A stretch of DNA of 49,067 nucleotides, from contig JACRPI010000030.1 of the NCBI GenBank assembly GCA_016214075.1, positions 1 through 49,067 of the forward strand. The letters are read 5' to 3'. This DNA comes from Candidatus Woesearchaeota archaeon. GTDB taxonomy: Archaea > Nanobdellota > Nanobdellia > Woesearchaeales > DSVV01. The notes below the pieces were generated by a model. The model was not told where the DNA came from. It worked only from the letters and a program-made list of their open reading frames with translations, and searched no databases. Made by a program: the position numbers and the translations under genes. Positions 1-49,067 of the stretch are shown here, piece by piece. The first letter of the stretch is position 1. The number at the start of each line of letters is the position of its first letter.

Positions 1-66
1 AAGTTCATCCGGAATTCTCCAACCATCATCTCTAACAACTAATCCCATCGGGTCACCTCTTCTCAT
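1..66 (-). CDS. IS5-family transposase, N-terminal fragment
   Basis: The ATG at 66 on the minus strand opens 22 codons before the window ends. The peptide starts MRRGDPMG and continues with DDGWRIPDEL, the usual opening of IS5/IS427-group DDE transposases, just before the W-x-x-I-x-P-L-L-P segment. The catalytic domain lies outside the window. The matching C-terminus of the same family is at 48945-49067. The family call rests on the two ends together. Confidence 0.65.
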   Translation of the reverse strand, partial: MRRGDPMGLVVRDDGWRIPDEL

Positions 67-136
67 TCTCACGTGACCCATTCCCTAATATCTATTCAAT
101 GAGAAAGCTACTATTTATTCCTTTCGGGATAGGCTC
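1..136 (-). mobile_element. IS5-like insertion sequence, 5' end (partial)
   Basis: This is the transposase-start end of an insertion sequence that runs off the left edge of the window. Its terminal inverted repeat reads CTTAGAGCCTATCCC on the minus strand, at 126-140. The reverse complement of that string occurs at 48929-48943, where the opposite end of the same kind of IS begins. Where the IS stops and the target begins is uncertain by about 4 bases, because the flanking CTTA/TAAG also matches. The element interrupts the gene at 181-1335. Confidence 0.75.
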
Positions 137-180
137 TAAGTAATTCTGATAAATCCAGAATACAGGATATCGCGAGGAAT

Positions 181-1335
181 ATGAATCCCCCATTTAGTGT
201 AGATATAGAGCAAATAGACAATTTGGCTGTAATTGATATACCAATTGAGACCAGTAAGCCCTATTCAATAAATGGCCACTTTTTCCTAAGAATTGGCACT
301 AATTCACAGCAATTGAACAGGGATGAAATCAAAGGGTTTTTTCAAGATGAGGGTTTGATACCATTTGACGAGAAATTAAATAAGGAATTTGACATAGGTA
401 AGAACTTTAATAAAACAGCATATGTAAATTTTCTCAAGAGAAGCAAGATAAGTGCAGACCTATCTGCTGCAAAATTGCTGGCTAATATCGGCTTTATTAA
501 AAATAACAGGATGACTAATGCAGGAGTGTTGTTCTTTTGCAAAGATGTTTCCAAGTTTTTTTTGAATTCTCACATAACCTGTGTTTTGTTCCAAGGCACA
601 AATAAGTCTATCATTCTTGATAAACAAGAGTTTAATTTTGATTTGATTGCCAATTATGATAAAGCGATAGAGTATATGAAATCAAAATTGAATACTGAAT
701 TCTATATTAAGAAATATAGGGAAGAGTTCCTCGAGCTGCCTGAAAATGCATTAAGAGAAGCTATACTTAACGCGCTTGCGCACAGAGATTATTTTTCTCC
801 TTCACATATCCAAATCAATATCTTCAATGATAAAGTGGAAATAATAAACCCCGCATCATTTCCATCAAAAATAACTATTGCTGACTTATTAAGCGGAAGC
901 CACCCCAAAAATAGATTCTTGTTTTCTATGATGCAAAGGGCTGATTTGGCTGAAGAGGTAGGTTCTGGCATTGGCAGAATGAAATCTGAAATGGAGGCTT
1001 ATAAGCTGGATACCCCAAAATTTGAATATACAGGCGTTTGGTTTATTGTAACATTTAATCGTCCTGATTTGCAAGCTAACAGCTATCAAAAAAGGTTGGG
1101 TTTAAAGGCCACTGAAGAAGGAAGTTCCCAGAAAAGTTCCCAGAAAAGTTCCCAGAAAAGTTCCCAGAAAATACTTGTTTTAATTGAACAAAATCCAGCT
1201 GTTACTATTGAGGAGATGGCAGGCAAATTATCGCTTACAGACAGGGCAATCAAGAAGAATCTGGCTAAGCTCAAGGAGAAAGGATTGATTAAGAGAGTAG
1301 GCCCTGACAAAGGCGGGCATTGGGAGATAAAATGA
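181..1335 (+). CDS. AlbA_2/Schlafen-type ATP-binding regulator, 5'-truncated by an IS
   Basis: This is the C-terminal part of a COG2865-type protein (divergent AlbA_2 domain, then a histidine-kinase-like ATPase fold, then winged helix). Visible family marks are NALAHRDYF (about residues 197-205), EEVGSGIGRM (about 260-269) and a C-terminal HTH after the linker. The frame is open upstream from 133 and encodes SNSDKSRIQDIARN, a normal part of the AlbA_2 domain, so the first ~100 residues were lost when the IS at 1-136 inserted. The annotated ATG is therefore probably internal. A linker of four SSQK repeats comes from a 12-bp tandem repeat. Such proteins are often linked to defence or regulation, but the function here is unknown and the gene is probably dead. 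Confidence 0.7.
   Translation: MNPPFSVDIEQIDNLAVIDIPIETSKPYSINGHFFLRIGTNSQQLNRDEIKGFFQDEGLIPFDEKLNKEFDIGKNFNKTAYVNFLKRSKISADLSAAKLLANIGFIKNNRMTNAGVLFFCKDVSKFFLNSHITCVLFQGTNKSIILDKQEFNFDLIANYDKAIEYMKSKLNTEFYIKKYREEFLELPENALREAILNALAHRDYFSPSHIQINIFNDKVEIINPASFPSKITIADLLSGSHPKNRFLFSMMQRADLAEEVGSGIGRMKSEMEAYKLDTPKFEYTGVWFIVTFNRPDLQANSYQKRLGLKATEEGSSQKSSQKSSQKSSQKILVLIEQNPAVTIEEMAGKLSLTDRAIKKNLAKLKEKGLIKRVGPDKGGHWEIK
1123..1170 (+). repeat. four perfect 12-bp tandem repeats (SSQK linker)
   Basis: The 12-mer AGTTCCCAGAAA occurs four times without interruption and encodes (SSQK)4 between the ATPase-like and HTH regions of the surrounding gene. The unit keeps the reading frame, so copy-number change would only alter linker length. 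Confidence 0.9.
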
Positions 1336-1370
1336 CTTTATTAACAAAATCAAGATACGGAATAAAATGA
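1332..1370 (+). pseudogene. DUF2779/Cas4-like nuclease start, 12-codon remnant
   Basis: The peptide MTLLTKSRYGIK ends at a TGA. Its first seven residues and DNA match the start of the longer fragment at 3079-3258 (MTLLTKSKY). The ATG overlaps the stop of the preceding gene (ATGA). It is read as a decayed 5' end of the same nuclease family, too short to be functional. Confidence 0.5.
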
Positions 1371-1381
1371 GATGAGATCAT

Positions 1382-1453
1382 ATGACAACCTACTCACACT
1401 CAAAACTCGGCACATTCCAACAGTGCAAATACAAACTGCAATATTACAAATGA
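1382..1453 (+). pseudogene. PD-(D/E)XK nuclease start, 23-codon remnant
   Basis: The first 18 residues (MTTYSHSKLGTFQQCKYK) are identical to the start of the IS-interrupted gene at 48792, with a few synonymous DNA differences. The frame then diverges and stops. The motif S-x-L-x-x-F-x-x-C-x-x-K-Y is the usual N-terminus of RecB/Cas4-like PD-(D/E)XK nucleases. It is a second, decayed copy of that gene's 5' end. Confidence 0.6.
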
Positions 1454-1631: not shown

Positions 1632-1666
1632 AATGAAATTGTATGGGACTTCAGAGATGTGATATA

Positions 1667-3064
1667 ATGGTTGGAATTGATAAGCATAAAAATATTTTTT
1701 ACTTTTATCGTGGTCCCACTTCTAAGCAAGAAGGAAATGATGATGCGATCACTCGCCAATTAGAGAATAATATAACCAAAGCATTAGTTAATGTGTTAGA
1801 TCCTGAGAATTTAGAGGAGAATTTTCATGATAAATCTGATGATGTTCTAGCAAAGAAGTTTTTTATAGATATACTCAAGACAAAGAAAGATGAGCTTGGT
1901 AACCTTAAAAGAGTAGAATTACAAAAGTATTGCAGTGCCCCAGAAGCTCAAAATCGTATCCCTGATGCCGTCTTTACATTTGAAAGAAAAATAATAGGAA
2001 TAGAATCTAAATACAAAGCACCTATAATAAGTGAACAACTAAAGGGGCAGTGGGAACATCTACAAAGCTTTGATGATAACCCCATTTTGATTGTATTGGC
2101 ACCTGCTTCTAAAATAAAGGAAGCTAAAGAGCTATTTGATACCCATAAAACAACATTGTATCCTTTTTCTTGGGAGCAGGTACATGATTTCTTTGAAAGA
2201 GAAGGTTTACAATCGTCTAAAGATAAAAATAACCTTCTTAACAAACAGTTTACTGAATATTTGAGGTTGATGCACATGACAGAACGATTTACAAAATATG
2301 ATTTTAGTGAAGTAGCCGATCTTGAACTGGAAAAAGGAACACCTGAAAAAGAACTAACTGATAAGTTTGATAATTTTATTGATCGTTTTGTTAAAGAGAT
2401 AACTAAAGATCCAACCATAAAATATCTTAAGAGTTCAAAAAAATCTAACAAGAATTTGTGGATAACTATAAACAAAGAGAGTAAAAATACTTTTGACGAA
2501 TTTCACATTACAAGTCATTTAGCAAGCAATGGGATTGATTTAATGTTCACAACAGAAGAAAGAAAAATGCCAAAGAAACTAGCGATGTTATTAGGGGCAA
2601 AAGATGCAAACTTCTGGAAAAAAGAACCTGCTTTAAAATTTTGGAATAAGATAGAAAGAATTACTTTACCTATCAAAGGAAGCAACCAAAAATGTGAATT
2701 CAAAATTATATTTCAAGGTGTTAGGAAATATCGTCAAGGTGATGGGAATGAAGAACCTATTTGCACTTTTGAATTTGAACTTAATGATAAAAAAGATGAT
2801 AAAGAATACCTTAAAAAGCATCAAGATACAATAGACGCAAGAAAAGAATATTTAGGTAGTATCCTCAGTACGCTCTATAACATTGATCTCAAACAACAAA
2901 ATAGATACTATCGTTTCAGAATTTCTTGCCTCGTCAAAAGAAAGGGTATAGAAGACGAAAAAACAATAGATGACCAAATAACGTATTTTGTAGAGCAGAC
3001 TGAACCAATAATTGACATATACAAATTTTTTCAAGAATTATTAAACGGAGAAAACCAAAAGTAA
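1667..3064 (+). CDS. PD-(D/E)XK-like nuclease domain protein
   Basis: This protein of about 465 residues is not assigned to a named family. Residues ~97-115 carry RIPDAVF, a hydrophobic strand and GIESKYK, that is D100, then E113-x-K115, which fits the D...ExK core of PD-(D/E)XK nucleases. A hydrophobic strand (PILIVLAPAS) follows, as in that fold. The C-terminal two thirds is charged and mixed alpha/beta with no motif I know. I prefer the ATG at 1667 over 1643 because it follows a GTGAT-type ribosome-binding sequence and starts MVGIDKHKN. It sits among nuclease remnants and near an IS, a context typical of defence islands. A restriction or defence role is inference only. Confidence 0.5.
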   Translation: MVGIDKHKNIFYFYRGPTSKQEGNDDAITRQLENNITKALVNVLDPENLEENFHDKSDDVLAKKFFIDILKTKKDELGNLKRVELQKYCSAPEAQNRIPDAVFTFERKIIGIESKYKAPIISEQLKGQWEHLQSFDDNPILIVLAPASKIKEAKELFDTHKTTLYPFSWEQVHDFFEREGLQSSKDKNNLLNKQFTEYLRLMHMTERFTKYDFSEVADLELEKGTPEKELTDKFDNFIDRFVKEITKDPTIKYLKSSKKSNKNLWITINKESKNTFDEFHITSHLASNGIDLMFTTEERKMPKKLAMLLGAKDANFWKKEPALKFWNKIERITLPIKGSNQKCEFKIIFQGVRKYRQGDGNEEPICTFEFELNDKKDDKEYLKKHQDTIDARKEYLGSILSTLYNIDLKQQNRYYRFRISCLVKRKGIEDEKTIDDQITYFVEQTEPIIDIYKFFQELLNGENQK

Positions 3065-3078
3065 TTGAAAGGGATAAT

Positions 3079-3258
3079 ATGACTTTATTAACAAAATCAA
3101 AATATATGGCAGGATTATCTTGTCCAAAGTATCTCTGGATGATGTTTCATGACTTGGATAAACTTCCAGAGAAAGACATGGCAACAGAGTATGTTATTGA
3201 GCAAGGGCATATTGTTGGACAGTTAGCAAAGAAACTTTTTCCCATTGTCAAATTATGA
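3079..3258 (+). pseudogene. DUF2779/Cas4-like nuclease, truncated after 59 codons
   Basis: The peptide starts MTLLTKSKYMAGLSCPKYLW and contains IEQGHIVGQLAKKLFP. This matches the conserved opening of DUF2779 proteins (LTKS-x-Y-x-x-G-L-x-C-P-K-x-L-W, then QG-x-x-VG-x-L-A-x-x-L-F-P), which carry a Cas4/RecB-like nuclease domain. The frame stops just before the usual G-I/V-D position, so only the N-terminal Cys-containing part remains. The breakpoint near 3258 abuts the 5' flank of the 3394 gene. Confidence 0.6.
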
Positions 3259-11203: not shown

Positions 11204-11321
11204 CGCTGGAGCTGGGATTTGAACCCAGAGCGGCCTGTGAAAACCGAGAGGCTTTCTGAAGCCTCTAGACTTCCCTAGAGGCATATCAGACCTCCGCCCT
11301 ACCTGATTAGACGACTCCAGC
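11204..11321 (-). tRNA. class II tRNA with bulge-helix-bulge intron, predicted anticodon GAU
   Basis: The acceptor stem GCTGGAG/CTCCAGC, D arm (GTCT/GGGC), T arm CTGGG-TTCAAAT-CCCAG and a 19-nt variable arm are all clear; the discriminator is G. A 30-nt intron (11254-11283) sits between positions 37 and 38. It forms a textbook BHB: CTGA pairs with TCAG, 3-nt bulges TAT and AAA, and an intronic hairpin GCCTCTAG/CTAGAGGC. Splicing yields loop CTGATAA, anticodon GAU (Ile). The long variable arm, G73 and D loop (AATCaGGTA) resemble the tRNA-Ser at 23838 instead. Identity is therefore ambiguous. Confidence 0.85.
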
Positions 11322-25381: not shown

Positions 25382-25488
25382 GGGCCGTTAGCTCAGCCTG
25401 GTAGAGCGAAGGACTCTTATTTAAAATGAAGGACTCCTTTATTCAAGAAGAAATCCTTAGGTCACGGGTTCGAATCCCGCACGGCCCG
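25382..25488 (+). tRNA. tRNA-Lys (CUU) with intron
   Basis: The acceptor GGGCCGT/ACGGCCC, D arm GCTC/GAGC, and T arm CGGG-TTCGAAT-CCCG pair; discriminator G. A 33-nt intron (about 25420-25452) splits the anticodon loop after position 37. The spliced loop is CTCTTAA, anticodon CUU, on stem AAGGA/TCCTT. The intron carries GAAGGACTCCTT, a near copy of the exon GAAGGACTCTT. The BHB is imperfect, so splice sites are approximate. Confidence 0.9.
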
Positions 25489-43731: not shown

Positions 43732-44139
43732 TTACCTGTACGGTTGTTTTACTTCAACAGGGATTCCATCTGGGTCTTTTACTGTAAAATAACGAACTGT
43801 TTTTCCACGAACAATATCACTCAGTTCTCCACCCTTTATTCGTAAATCTTCCTGTGCCTCTTCAAGATTAGGAACAAGGAGTGCAAAATGTTTTACTCCA
43901 ATAACACCCAAATTTTCATGGAAATCTTGTGCATAGTCTGGTAATACACGAGCTTCATACGGTTGAAATAATTCTAATCCTTGCTCTCCAAGCCGAAGCA
44001 TTGCGCCTTTTTTTCGTAAATCTGGTCTGTCAAACCGAACCTCTTCTCTAAATCCAAACATTGCTCTATACCATTCTACTGATCTATCGAGATCACTCAC
44101 AGTGATAGCCACGTGATCCATCTGATATGCTGTTGTCAT
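43732..44139 (-). CDS. VOC (glyoxalase/dioxygenase) superfamily protein
   Basis: Two beta-alpha-beta-beta-beta modules are visible. The likely metal ligands are H9 (DHVAITVSD), E in LELFQP, H in VKHFALLV and E in IPVEVKQPY, the usual H/E/H/E set of glyoxalase I or methylmalonyl-CoA epimerase-like proteins. The length of 135 is standard. The start overlaps the 3' end of the NACHT-like gene by 47 bases; Met7 (MDHVAITV) is an alternative start. The aldolase follows, suggesting one operon. Substrate unknown. Confidence 0.85.
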   Translation of the reverse strand: MTTAYQMDHVAITVSDLDRSVEWYRAMFGFREEVRFDRPDLRKKGAMLRLGEQGLELFQPYEARVLPDYAQDFHENLGVIGVKHFALLVPNLEEAQEDLRIKGGELSDIVRGKTVRYFTVKDPDGIPVEVKQPYR

Positions 44140-46252
44140 TTTCTTTTACCTCCATCAATATCGTTTCTGCTCCTACCAAATTGTGAAGGAGCTTTGTTCC
44201 CTGTTCTTCTGTTAAACGAGGAATAATATAACTTGCATGATAGCGAATAATTGGTTTCTTATCCTGCAATGCAATTTCAATATATGGAAACGCTTGTTTC
44301 GTATCAATGTGCGCAAGTTCTATCAGCGCATGCCCTTTCATGAAATCTTGTTGTGCATGTTCAATGAGCGTAAGTAGTTTCTGCTGCTGTTTTTGTTGTA
44401 TGCGCTTTACTTGTTCTTGATTTATGCTCTGTAATCGCTCTAGTGTTCGTGCAGTTTGACAAACAAGAATAGGATCGTCATTGGTAAGAAATTTTTTGAG
44501 TTCTAAAACCATTGAAATATCATTTTGCAATCCTACAATTTCAATAATGCTATATTGCAAATGCTTATTTGATGTTGCAATTAGTGCGCTTCGTAGTGTT
44601 TGCATTCTCTTATCATCTAATGCAATTGTGGTGTGATAAAGAATGTTCACTAATCGCGGAGTAATATCTTCTTCACATTGTCCAAAAAAGTCGAGAAGTG
44701 TTTGAATTACGTATGGATCATTCCATTCATAGAAAATTTCTCGTAATGAATACCAATGCGGATAAAAAAGTGCATCAGTATAATTATAGATGTTTAAGAG
44801 TGCATGAAGGATGCCTTGATAATCATTCCACTCGGGTGTCTTTACTTCTTTCAAACATTTTGTTGCAAGAAATAAATATTCATGGTTCACTGTTCGCACA
44901 TATTCTGTAAAAATAGCGTAGATAAGTTCTTTTGGATTATCAACTAATCCTGCATAAAAAGGAAGAACAGATTTTCTTTTGAAAAGCATTGTTGTATCAA
45001 ACGGATGTATGCTCATATAGAGAGCAATAAAGTAATCTCTTATGCGTTGATGAGAAAATGTGTATGCTCCATTTTCCAGTTCTTGGAGAATTTCAATTTT
45101 CAACAATGCGACAATAAGTTCTTGTTCATACTTCTTTTCCCACTGTTCTTCTTTTGCGATTGCGCTCACTTGCTCCAAAAGAGAGCTATGTGAGAAAGTC
45201 ATTTCTGTTTTGAAAGCGATTTGTGCCAATACTTTTTTTAGATCTGCGCTATAATAGTTCTTGTTCTTCTTTTCGTGCAATACAAGAGATTCTGTGATAA
45301 ACGCATCATATACATCTACCTTCTTTGCATTCTCTGGAAATTTTTTTTTGATATGAAGAGCCATCATAATATGCAATGGCGTTTTACAAAGCTCTTTAAT
45401 AGCATGTGGAAGTGAACTCCACGCTTCTTCTTTATTTTTGCTTTGAAGAAATGTTTGCACTTGTTTTTGATTCATTGGCGCAAGAGCAAACGTTGGTAAT
45501 GGCAACATCTCTTTTGGATCGTGCGACGTTCGTGTGGTAATAACCATCTTATTTTTTGGATAGTGTTTTGTGAATGCATACAGTTCAGAAAGCGTCTTTT
45601 CATATTCTGGATTTTCATCTAAGCCATCAAAGAGCAATAAAAATGAGCCTTGTTCAAAATGGTATTCTATAGTTTCTTTGGAAACCGGAGTACGAAGACA
45701 TTGTTTTATGAAAACGAAGAAATCATCTTTGTGATAGTGTTGCAGAGGTAGGAAAAGAGGAATGCGTTCTTTTTCTTGTGCTGCCAGAAGTTTGAGAAGT
45801 GTTGTTTTTCCACTTCCTGAATCTCCTATCAAAAGAAAGATTGGAAATTGCTTTAGGATGTCATATGGATTTTTTGTTCCTTCAACGTATTGCCTATACT
45901 GAAATTCTGAAAGATACGTAGGAATAATGTCCAACAAAACATAATCTTTTGTCTCTAAAATTGGTCGTTCTTTGGAGAGCGATTGAAGAACCAATGGTTT
46001 TTGCTGTGCAATTCTCTGCTCAATCATCACTGTATTGAGTGCATATTCTTTATTCGCTTCTAAAAGAAAACGATCATTTACTAACTCTCTGATTGCTTTG
46101 TAAACGCCATGATATGTAATGGATATACCTTGCTGTTTGATACAATAAAATATCTTTTTCGCGCTACTTTGAGGATACTGGTTTATGGCATTAATGACTG
46201 CGTCTTTAAGAACAAGCTTTCCATTTTCTGGGCTAAAAATACGAATGAACAT
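44093..46252 (-). CDS. NACHT-like STAND NTPase with N-terminal winged helix and HEAT-like repeats (719 aa)
   Basis: The N-terminal ~90 residues are a winged helix (AVINAINQYPQSSAKKIFYC, then GVYKAIRELVND). The NTPase follows: Walker A GDSGSGKTTLLKL (about 142-154), Walker B LLLFDGLDENPEY (about 206-218) and sensor ITTRTSHDP. A helical region and HEAT-like repeats finish (ALQDKKPIIRYHASYIIPRL). The domain order matches STAND signalling NTPases, some of which are antiviral sensors; the partner effector is not fused. The 3' end overlaps the VOC gene. Confidence 0.85.
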   Translation of the reverse strand: MFIRIFSPENGKLVLKDAVINAINQYPQSSAKKIFYCIKQQGISITYHGVYKAIRELVNDRFLLEANKEYALNTVMIEQRIAQQKPLVLQSLSKERPILETKDYVLLDIIPTYLSEFQYRQYVEGTKNPYDILKQFPIFLLIGDSGSGKTTLLKLLAAQEKERIPLFLPLQHYHKDDFFVFIKQCLRTPVSKETIEYHFEQGSFLLLFDGLDENPEYEKTLSELYAFTKHYPKNKMVITTRTSHDPKEMLPLPTFALAPMNQKQVQTFLQSKNKEEAWSSLPHAIKELCKTPLHIMMALHIKKKFPENAKKVDVYDAFITESLVLHEKKNKNYYSADLKKVLAQIAFKTEMTFSHSSLLEQVSAIAKEEQWEKKYEQELIVALLKIEILQELENGAYTFSHQRIRDYFIALYMSIHPFDTTMLFKRKSVLPFYAGLVDNPKELIYAIFTEYVRTVNHEYLFLATKCLKEVKTPEWNDYQGILHALLNIYNYTDALFYPHWYSLREIFYEWNDPYVIQTLLDFFGQCEEDITPRLVNILYHTTIALDDKRMQTLRSALIATSNKHLQYSIIEIVGLQNDISMVLELKKFLTNDDPILVCQTARTLERLQSINQEQVKRIQQKQQQKLLTLIEHAQQDFMKGHALIELAHIDTKQAFPYIEIALQDKKPIIRYHASYIIPRLTEEQGTKLLHNLVGAETILMEVKENDNSISDGSRGYHCE

Positions 46253-47632: not shown

Positions 47633-47690
47633 GAGAATATTCTCGTCTTAATGAGACGAGTCTCATAAAAGCATAATCTTTATAAGGAAC
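47633..47690 (+). promoter_or_regulatory. nested palindromes and TATA box upstream of the CARF-HTH gene
   Basis: Three overlapping palindromes are GAGAATATTCTC (47633-47644), CTCGTCT-taatg-AGACGAG (47642-47660) and TGAGAC-ga-GTCTCA (47652-47665). The TATA box (ATCTTTATAAGG) follows about 20-30 bases before the ATG at 47709. This is a probable autoregulated operator of the HTH protein. Confidence 0.7.
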
Positions 47691-47708
47691 AACGTGTTTC
47701 TTTCCACT

Positions 47709-48308
47709 ATGGCAAATGTTTTGATTGCAACATTGTACGGACACGAACCAGTTATTGTAACAGCAACAAAAGTAAGTGCTGATAGGTTAATATTGCTCCC
47801 AAGTGATTCTTCTGATGATACACAACGAGAAGCGTTAAACATCATTCAAAAGAGTCTAGGTTCAGTTATGAATGTTAAAGTGCTGCAAACGAAAACCTAT
47901 GACGTTGTCTCTGTTGCATCTGAAATTGTCAAGATTATTGATATGATAAATGAACGTGATAATATCTTTGTCGATGTGACTTCTGGAAGAAAAACACGAG
48001 CATTTGGTGTTCTTTTTGGATGCTATGCTCGAGCGTCCAGAGTTAAGAAAATCCTTTATGTTCGTAAAGAAGATAATAAGATAGTACAGCTTCCAAAAGT
48101 TTCTTACAATCTTCCAGACAAACAGAGAAGGGTTGTTGCATACTTGTCATATAATCCAAAACCAAATATTGTAGATTTGCTTAAGCGAATGAAGATTTCT
48201 CGAGCAATGCTTTATCGTTACATTTCAGATTTAAAAGATATGGAAATTATTGAAGAGAATAAAGGAGAATATCAATTAACAGACTATGGAAAAATAGTGG
48301 TGTTGTAA
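47709..48308 (+). CDS. CARF-domain winged-helix regulator (Csa3-like)
   Basis: The N-terminal ~130 residues are a CARF fold (MANVLIATLYGHEP, then FVDVTSGRKTRAFG with T91-S-G-R-K, the usual ligand-binding loop). A winged helix follows (about 133-199, RRVVAYLSYNP, KISRAMLYRYISDL). Csa3 proteins sense cyclic oligoadenylate and regulate CRISPR or defence genes. Here there is no CRISPR array or cas operon. The start at 47709 gives the family MANVLI opening; an in-frame ATG at 47694 is upstream of it. The phosphatase gene begins one base after the stop. Confidence 0.85.
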   Translation: MANVLIATLYGHEPVIVTATKVSADRLILLPSDSSDDTQREALNIIQKSLGSVMNVKVLQTKTYDVVSVASEIVKIIDMINERDNIFVDVTSGRKTRAFGVLFGCYARASRVKKILYVRKEDNKIVQLPKVSYNLPDKQRRVVAYLSYNPKPNIVDLLKRMKISRAMLYRYISDLKDMEIIEENKGEYQLTDYGKIVVL

Positions 48309-48309
48309 C

Positions 48310-48789
48310 ATGAAAGAAGTTTGTAATAATTTGTATGTTGGAACAGAAGCGTCATGTTTCCATAGTCCAAAAGAAGGTTGGGCTGTCATTCATGCTTGTA
48401 AATCACCTTGTCACCAGAAAAGGTTGAATTATACTGGAAGCTTATCTCCTTCTCATCCAAACTACTTAATTTTTGAGGAAGAAAATAATCTATACTTGAA
48501 CATTGTCGACATGGATAAAATTCTCCCCAAATATACAGATCCTGTCTTTGGGAAAGCAATAGCGTTTATAGAGCAGAATATTGCTAATAAGAAAATAATA
48601 ATCCATTGCAATCAAGGACAATCAAGGTCTCCTGCAATTGCTTTAGTTTTTCTAGCAAAAAAAGAATTGTTCACTAAATCATCCTATCCAGAAGCGGTTA
48701 TTGCATTTCGCAAACTTTACCCAAACTACCAACCAGGAATTTGCATTCAAAATTATCTTATTAACAATTGGCAGAGGTTAGTTAATTGA
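48310..48789 (+). CDS. dual-specificity protein phosphatase-like
   Basis: The signature H-C100-x5-R106 (IIHCNQGQSRSPAIALVFL) is intact and the general acid may be Asp in VDMDKILPKYTDP. An N-terminal LYVGTEA-type start is typical of DSPs. The length of 159 is normal. It is separated by one base from the CARF-HTH stop, so the two are co-translated. The substrate could be a phosphoprotein or phosphorylated nucleotide. Confidence 0.85.
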   Translation: MKEVCNNLYVGTEASCFHSPKEGWAVIHACKSPCHQKRLNYTGSLSPSHPNYLIFEEENNLYLNIVDMDKILPKYTDPVFGKAIAFIEQNIANKKIIIHCNQGQSRSPAIALVFLAKKELFTKSSYPEAVIAFRKLYPNYQPGICIQNYLINNWQRLVN

Positions 48790-48791
48790 AG

Positions 48792-48932
48792 ATGACAACC
48801 TACTCACACTCAAAACTTGGTACATTCCAACAATGCAAATACAAGTATAAGCTTCAATACATTGACAAAGTCAAAGTAGATGTCCCTGACACAGTAGAAA
48901 CATTCATGGGAAAATTGGTTCATGAAGTCTTA
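48792..48932 (+). pseudogene. PD-(D/E)XK nuclease start, interrupted by an IS
   Basis: The opening MTTYSHSKLGTFQQCKYKYK and the later segment ETFMGKLVHEVLE match RecB/Cas4-like PD-(D/E)XK nucleases (S-x-L-x-x-F-x-x-C, then G-x-x-x-H-E-x-L). The gene starts 2 bases after the phosphatase stop. The IS enters after codon 47 (reading into the IS to a TGA at 48951), so it is inactive. A decayed copy of the same start lies at 1382-1453. Confidence 0.75.
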
Positions 48933-49067
48933 GAGCCTATCCCATTAGATTGACCTCCATGTAATTATTCCACATGCGAGATGCAATAATCCTATGTAAG
49001 CATCTGGTCTTTTAGACCAACGAATCAATAACCCTCTAAATCGGTTGAACCAACTATGTGTACGTTC
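48933..49067 (-). mobile_element. IS5-like insertion sequence, 3' end (partial)
   Basis: The terminal repeat CTTAGAGCCTATCCC (48929-48943) is the inverse of the one at 126-140. The element encodes the end of a leftward transposase and runs off the right edge. Its orientation matches the IS at position 1. Confidence 0.75.
48945..49067 (-). CDS. IS5-family transposase, C-terminal fragment
   Basis: The last 40 residues include ERTHSWFNRFRGLLIRW and end HLACGIITWRSI. This is the well-known C-terminal region of IS5/IS427-group transposases (E-R-T-x-x-W-L-x-R-x-R-R-L). The DDE catalytic glutamate lies in this Y/E-R-x-x-x-W region. The N-terminal part of such a transposase is at 1-66. Confidence 0.75.
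   Translation of the reverse strand, partial: ERTHSWFNRFRGLLIRWSKRPDAYIGLLHLACGIITWRSI

Follow-up and report, generated by a model that had tools for sequence, protein, structure and literature searches.

The stretch of DNA analysed here (the window) is the entire contig C30, 49,067 nucleotides (nt) long, of a Candidatus Woesearchaeota archaeon whose genome assembly (G000) comprises 1.62 Mb in 46 contigs. At its right end lies a gene for a CARF regulator with a winged helix-turn-helix (wHTH) domain, followed by genes for a dual-specificity phosphatase (DSP) and a PD-(D/E)XK nuclease. We consider it probable that this end of the window represents the 5' part of a restriction-type defence operon under CARF control, with the order: CARF-wHTH, DSP, PD-(D/E)XK nuclease, DUF1232, PbeA, PbeB-like, PbeC and PbeD-like, in which the CARF protein would act as a nucleotide-sensing, CRISPR-independent switch and the DSP would be an accessory. 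The best reading of the comparative data is that the promoter and the CARF gene together constitute a reusable switch, which heads variable defence cargo in many DPANN archaea.

The operon and its continuation on contig C8

The three genes lie on the forward strand and are tightly packed. The CARF-wHTH gene (47709..48308, 199 residues) starts with the ATG at 47709, a GTG being present in frame at 47694; the DSP gene (48310..48789, 159 residues) follows after 1 nt and the nuclease gene 2 nt after the DSP stop, which confirms the gaps given in an initial annotation that had been made from the window sequence alone. The window contains only the first 47 codons (48792..48932) of the RecB/Cas4-like nuclease (PF12705, 1.5e-8). 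At 48933 the left end of an insertion sequence (IS) begins (48933..49067, reverse strand), with an apparent 3-bp target duplication TTA, and the contig stops inside this IS. The genome contains at least 18 copies of this IS end, almost all of which lie at the end of a contig, and all except one are preceded by a TNA-type triplet. The left edge of the window (1..136) is the other end of a copy of this IS and is identical in 130 of 130 nt to the copy end on contig C8. There, TTA comes next after the IS, and this triplet also lies before the IS in the window. When the intact nuclease from a relative was used as query, nuclease residues 44-385 were recovered on C8 (54% identical to the query), and the parts on C30 and C8, when joined, yield one open frame of 383 codons. 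The shared target duplication and the open reading frame (ORF) thus show that C30 and C8 are connected through the IS, and the earlier statement that the nuclease was lost to an IS held, with its missing part now located.

A nuclease fragment on contig C18 was also considered as the missing half and rejected: it belongs to a different subfamily and has a different repeat at its end. It is on C18 (L027 11277-11737) that this different repeat end, of which the genome has 5 copies, truncates a PD-(D/E)XK nuclease gene.

Behind the nuclease, C8 carries, in this order: genes for a DUF1232 protein, the helicase PbeA, a 68-residue ORF, the SMC-type ATPase PbeC and a 132-residue ORF, and then a convergent gene for a C5-cytosine methylase. 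PbeA and PbeC matched their PADLOC profiles (5e-237 and 1.4e-147, respectively), the 68-residue ORF takes the PbeB position, and the 132-residue ORF, which has no PADLOC profile match, takes that of PbeD. DndC was not found in the genome. With the rest of the nuclease and the Pbe genes on C8, what is seen in the window are the first genes of a restriction operon of Pbe type, and not the module of three genes that had been proposed. In a relative of another family (G152) the corresponding genes (CARF, nuclease, DUF1232, PbeA, 63 residues, PbeC, 141 residues) are contiguous and intact, and the operon faces convergent genes read as DndA, DndE, DndD, DndC and DndB, where DndC was assigned by profile (1.4e-165) and the other four by position and sequence reading. 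On C8, an ORF beside the C5 methylase (L169 2-1714) was judged by eye to be a VirB4/HerA-like ATPase.

The initial annotation had placed the phosphatase and the nuclease together at the heart of the module, and one could thus imagine that the pair is the effector, with the nuclease as the cutting enzyme and the DSP as one that dephosphorylates or destroys the signal or a protein. Both genes are indeed in the operon and the active-site residues of the DSP are intact: it carries a DSPc domain (PF00782, 2.1e-10) and the HCx5R(S/T) signature, which reads HCNQGQSRS in the sequence. However, close DSP homologues occur in only two of the 371 sampled genomes of the phylum, this one included (next to two very weak matches), and the other close copy (G073, 62% identical) sits behind a Bro-N gene without CARF. 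No second genome with a CARF-DSP or DSP-nuclease link was found among those searched, and four relatives (G152, G220, L088 and L118) have the nuclease directly behind CARF without a DSP. In addition, relatives of the DSP occur in phages; a copy that is 53% identical to that of the window (L185 1428-1855) lies on a viral contig that is rich in GC, next to a large tape-measure-like ORF, and adjoins phage-like structural genes. We therefore regard an effector role of the pair as quite improbable and rejected the DSP as a conserved partner, its linkage being absent from the other genomes searched. It looks like a locally acquired accessory, resembling recent cargo, and not like the core of the system.

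The regulator, its promoter and the signal

The assignment of the first gene to a Csa3-like CARF regulator was borne out by several kinds of evidence. Pfam matches were obtained with HFX_2341_N (3.4e-10), Csa3_N (27.7 bits, cut-off 27) and HTH_24 (above cut-off), and give the domain order CARF Rossmann domain, then wHTH, without a WYL domain. The PADLOC CARF3 model PDLC01849 covers the protein over its full length (3.3e-63), and PADLOC CasR models match as well. The AlphaFold model (pLDDT 93) has as its best solved match 6wxq, which is Csa3 bound to cyclic tetra-adenylate (cA4), with an E-value of 3.6e-12. The residues T91, R94 and K95 are invariant in 33 CARF sequences and fit a ligand loop, in which cA4 might bind.

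This similarity raises the possibility that the protein is a standard Csa3-type regulator, either a relic of a type III CRISPR system or acting for one from a distance, so that cA4 made by Cas10 is in control and the neighbouring genes are incidental. The closest fold, that of Csa3 with cA4, the CasR matches and the Pfam Csa3_N match, albeit barely over its cut-off, are in line with this. Yet a Cas10 palm domain (PF22335) was found above cut-off in none of the 19 CARF-positive genomes, including this one, and Cas1 was present in only three of them and absent here; the CRISPR arrays themselves were not searched. Moreover, the neighbours are repeatedly drawn from the same small set of defence families (see below). 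Such a regulator is thus very unlikely, and the independence from CRISPR that had been claimed at the outset is supported as far as Cas1 and Cas10 are concerned.

Upstream of the CARF gene the window contains overlapping palindromes (47633..47666), consisting of perfect inverted repeats at 47633-47644 (GAGAATATTCTC), 47642-47660 and 47651-47666, which we predict to be the operator of the CARF regulator. They are located immediately upstream of a TATA-box-like sequence (TTTATAAGG, 47679..47687, forward strand), which was read from the sequence and aligned with four related promoters and lies around 25 nt before the CARF ATG, so that the transcript is possibly leaderless. The predicted operator is supported by its location right in front of the TATA box and by partial conservation with G152. 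The window and G107, G143, G152 and G192 have an ATGAGA element with the same spacing to the TATA box; these five promoters thus share an element at constant TATA-box distance, which differs from that of a larger sister group. In the latter, a palindromic element (TTTCTAtTattTaGTA...TAGAAA) directly precedes the TATA box, and 37 of 40 promoters exceed the 99% shuffle level (leave-one-out, mononucleotide shuffles).

The CARF genes of type B (e.g. L112, L139 and L107) show a further property: an in-frame ATG around 60 nt upstream in 23 of 25 genes, where the extension typically encodes M-E-x-[YF]-I-[NK], and, in 20 of 25, a Shine-Dalgarno-like stretch ahead of the inner start. The second start and the inner Shine-Dalgarno-like stretch together suggest the existence of long and short CARF forms.

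Linkage of CARF genes to defence genes and exchange of cargo

Homologues of the CARF gene were found in 28 of 194 order-level relatives and at 53 loci in a public genome collection, mostly of DPANN and mostly under the name Candidatus Woesearchaeota; none was found in viral contigs. Among the 54 non-redundant CARF genes with a downstream gene, the latter is on the same strand in 45 cases and within 30 nt in 38. A nuclease gene follows the CARF gene in 13 of 61 loci and precedes it in one, so that the search for the linkage in relatives, as had been recommended, recovered the CARF-nuclease part of the proposed module but in no other genome the link to the DSP. Mapped on the CARF tree, the nuclease shows at least eight changes between presence and absence.

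The Pfam families that are most represented among 113 cargo genes were: PDDEXK_1 (11), Bro-N (10), DUF2779 (6), GmrSD_N (4) and AlbA_2 (4), and RhuM and DNA methylases were also encountered. None of these families reaches two members among 113 control genes from the same genomes, which came from elsewhere on the contigs concerned and are not a random genome sample, and the number of PADLOC models matched was 482 for the cargo and 27 for these controls. Behind one cargo locus (L074 11827-12501, G033:C92) lies an ORF in which a resemblance to the N-terminus of Cas12a was noted by eye; further along that contig Cas1 is encoded (G033:C92:34229-35011).

These figures bear on the explanation that regulator, phosphatase and nuclease are unrelated genes piled up by chance in a defence island, without common control. 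That the DSP linkage was found nowhere else and that close CARF relatives differ in cargo would fit such a pile-up. On the other hand, the gaps of 1-2 nt in the window and of up to 30 nt in most loci leave no space for further promoters, the nuclease is found downstream far more often than upstream, and the promoter element is conserved before CARF genes. We thus hold a chance pile-up to be unlikely, and a CARF-controlled operon to be the better description.

The difference in cargo between close relatives has a sharp boundary. The CARF proteins of G107 and G143 are 93% identical and the DNA homology begins 205 nt upstream of the gene and ends 5 nt past the stop codon, after which the next genes differ; likewise, the homology between L077 and L124 is limited to -78 to 0 around the CARF gene. 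The loci L107 and L139 have collinear flanks, but L107 has an extra 1.39 kb exactly between the CARF stop and Bro-N, and this insertion ends in an 18-nt copy of the CARF tail. A profile of the CARF tail then recovered seven further copies in six other loci. All are downstream on the same strand, end at the CARF stop and sit between cargo genes (last ~18-45 nt of the CARF gene), and none was recovered from the reversed sequence or from 14 control loci. In the window, no copy was found between DSP and nuclease. As judged from these alignments, it is at the CARF stop codon that cargo has been added or removed.

The left end of the window relates to a second operon of this kind. Contig C18 contains a CARF paralogue (43% identical), behind which an AlbA_2 gene is cut by the same IS. 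The window continues this operon after the IS end with, all on the forward strand: the 3' part of the AlbA_2/HATPase_c_4 gene (137..1335, target duplication TAA), 12 codons left from the 5' end of a DUF2779-type gene (1332..1370), a 5'-terminal piece of the nuclease gene that is also seen at the right end (1382..1453, with 53 nt that are 94% identical to the beginning of the gene at 48792), a gene for a protein of 472 residues without Pfam match (1646..3064), which is a distant relative (29% and 23% identity) of cargo in two other CARF operons, and 59 codons that remain from the 5' end of a nuclease gene of DUF2779 type (3079..3258, 64% identity to the cargo gene L066_2). The two remnants of DUF2779 genes and the nuclease remnant behind AlbA_2 indicate that both CARF operons have lost or exchanged cargo. 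Around position 1643 a weak, unscored likeness to the CARF tail was seen by eye.

How the exchange proceeds can only be approached tentatively. One possibility, to which we attach limited weight, is that in DPANN archaea the promoter-CARF unit may form a regulated landing platform, where promoterless defence genes would be added or swapped at a recombination site made up of the last tens of nt of the CARF gene, each new gene thereby coming under a CRISPR-free nucleotide-sensing switch. A related and somewhat doubtful proposal, which would add to the CARF-operon explanation and does not exclude it, is that the CARF 3' end acts as an integron-like attachment site for promoterless defence cassettes with a recombinase acting in trans. 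The filled and empty pair L107/L139, the additional tails ending at the CARF stop and the halt of homology at the stop codon are all in accordance with this. However, the repeat length varies, no recombinase was present among the leading cargo Pfam families (the genomes themselves were not searched for one), the cargo genes of the window have no tail between them, and the remnants in the left part of the window derive from 5' gene ends, in agreement with simple deletion and recombination. Integron cassettes consist of promoterless genes behind a fixed promoter with short repeats at gene boundaries, a layout that the CARF loci may resemble, but here no integrase or attC structure was found (IntI was not searched for in the genomes) and the repeats are pieces of the regulator gene.

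Proposed mechanism and relation to known systems

For the CARF-controlled operon we envisage the following: i) a CARF dimer would bind the predicted operator that abuts the B recognition element (BRE) and TATA box of its own promoter, and keep the operon low; ii) a nucleotide signal made upon infection, by a source other than Cas10, would enter the CARF pocket and free the promoter; iii) the helicase, the SMC-type ATPase and the nuclease, together with the DUF1232 protein, would restrict DNA without a self mark; and iv) this mark would be phosphorothioate in G152, which has the convergent Dnd genes, while the convergent C5-cytosine methylase is the candidate here. A dimer on the conserved element, which adjoins the BRE, should block transcription factor B, and we therefore favour, with modest confidence, repression that is relieved by the ligand. 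In the organism at hand, the IS interrupts the nuclease and probably weakens the expression of the genes behind it.

Several points weigh against the interpretation as a CARF-controlled defence operon. The three nested palindromes reported initially are present as perfect inverted repeats but individually they are not beyond chance, the best inverted repeat of the window being equalled in 5 of 40 shuffles, and the promoter of the window falls in the smaller sister group, with five examples. The connection of C30 and C8 depends on IS junctions and a reading frame in a fragmented metagenome-assembled genome rather than on a read that spans the IS, and PbeB and PbeD are named from position and size alone. 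Csa3a is thought to activate (PMC8699464), hence the assumed direction of repression may be wrong, and because the operon is broken it may be non-functional in this organism. Finally, a search for cyclic-oligonucleotide synthases had been advised, and no source of such a signal was found in this genome, Cas10 being the only one looked for. The early suspicion of a second-messenger-controlled defence unit without CRISPR was nevertheless reasonable; it was the pairing of phosphatase and nuclease that proved not to be the unit.

The components are of known kinds. With Csa3 (PMC8699464, PMC8844856) the regulator shares the domain order, the fold and the palindromes upstream of BRE/TATA, but it is not located beside cas genes, the genome has no Cas10, and it is the first gene of non-CRISPR defence operons. 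The archaeal phosphorothioate-based system of PbeABCD with DndCDEA (PMC6459918, PMC10853773) has in common with the present operon the full-length PbeA and PbeC profiles and possibly, by their positions, the small genes PbeB and PbeD, and in G152 also Dnd, whereas here the CARF regulator, the Cas4-like nuclease and the DUF1232 protein come first, and this genome has a convergent C5 methylase but no DndC. Pbe without Dnd but with a methylase nearby has already been reported (PMC6459918); CARF is not mentioned in PMC10853773. The BrxR/CapW regulators (PMC9122601) likewise combine a ligand domain with a wHTH, precede diverse defence systems and have inverted repeats in their own promoter; in our case CARF replaces WYL, the setting is archaeal, and promoter and regulator are exchanged as a unit between cargo sets. 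The idea of CARF control of defence genes outside CRISPR and the family itself were also already known (PMC4012209; PADLOC CARF3 models). A promoter-CARF switch that is shuffled and exchanges cargo at the end of its gene appears to be new: no description of the DPANN cargo operons, the conserved operator or the CARF-tail repeats was found in the literature searched, which did not include subscription papers. The arrangement would imply nucleotide-signal control of defence in archaea without CRISPR and Cas10, and hence a yet-unnamed signal and synthase. A regulator that travels with its promoter before changing defence genes would explain how new ones can be expressed safely and inducibly, and the CARF gene with its tail may serve as bait for new defence genes in DPANN genomes.

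Elsewhere in the window, a 719-residue NACHT-domain protein with weak HEAT repeats is encoded on the reverse strand (44093-46252), 1.5 kb from the CARF operon, and is possibly a further defence-type gene. The window also contains two tRNA genes, of 118 nt (11204-11321, reverse strand) and 107 nt (25382-25488, forward strand), which exceed the model length and therefore probably contain introns.
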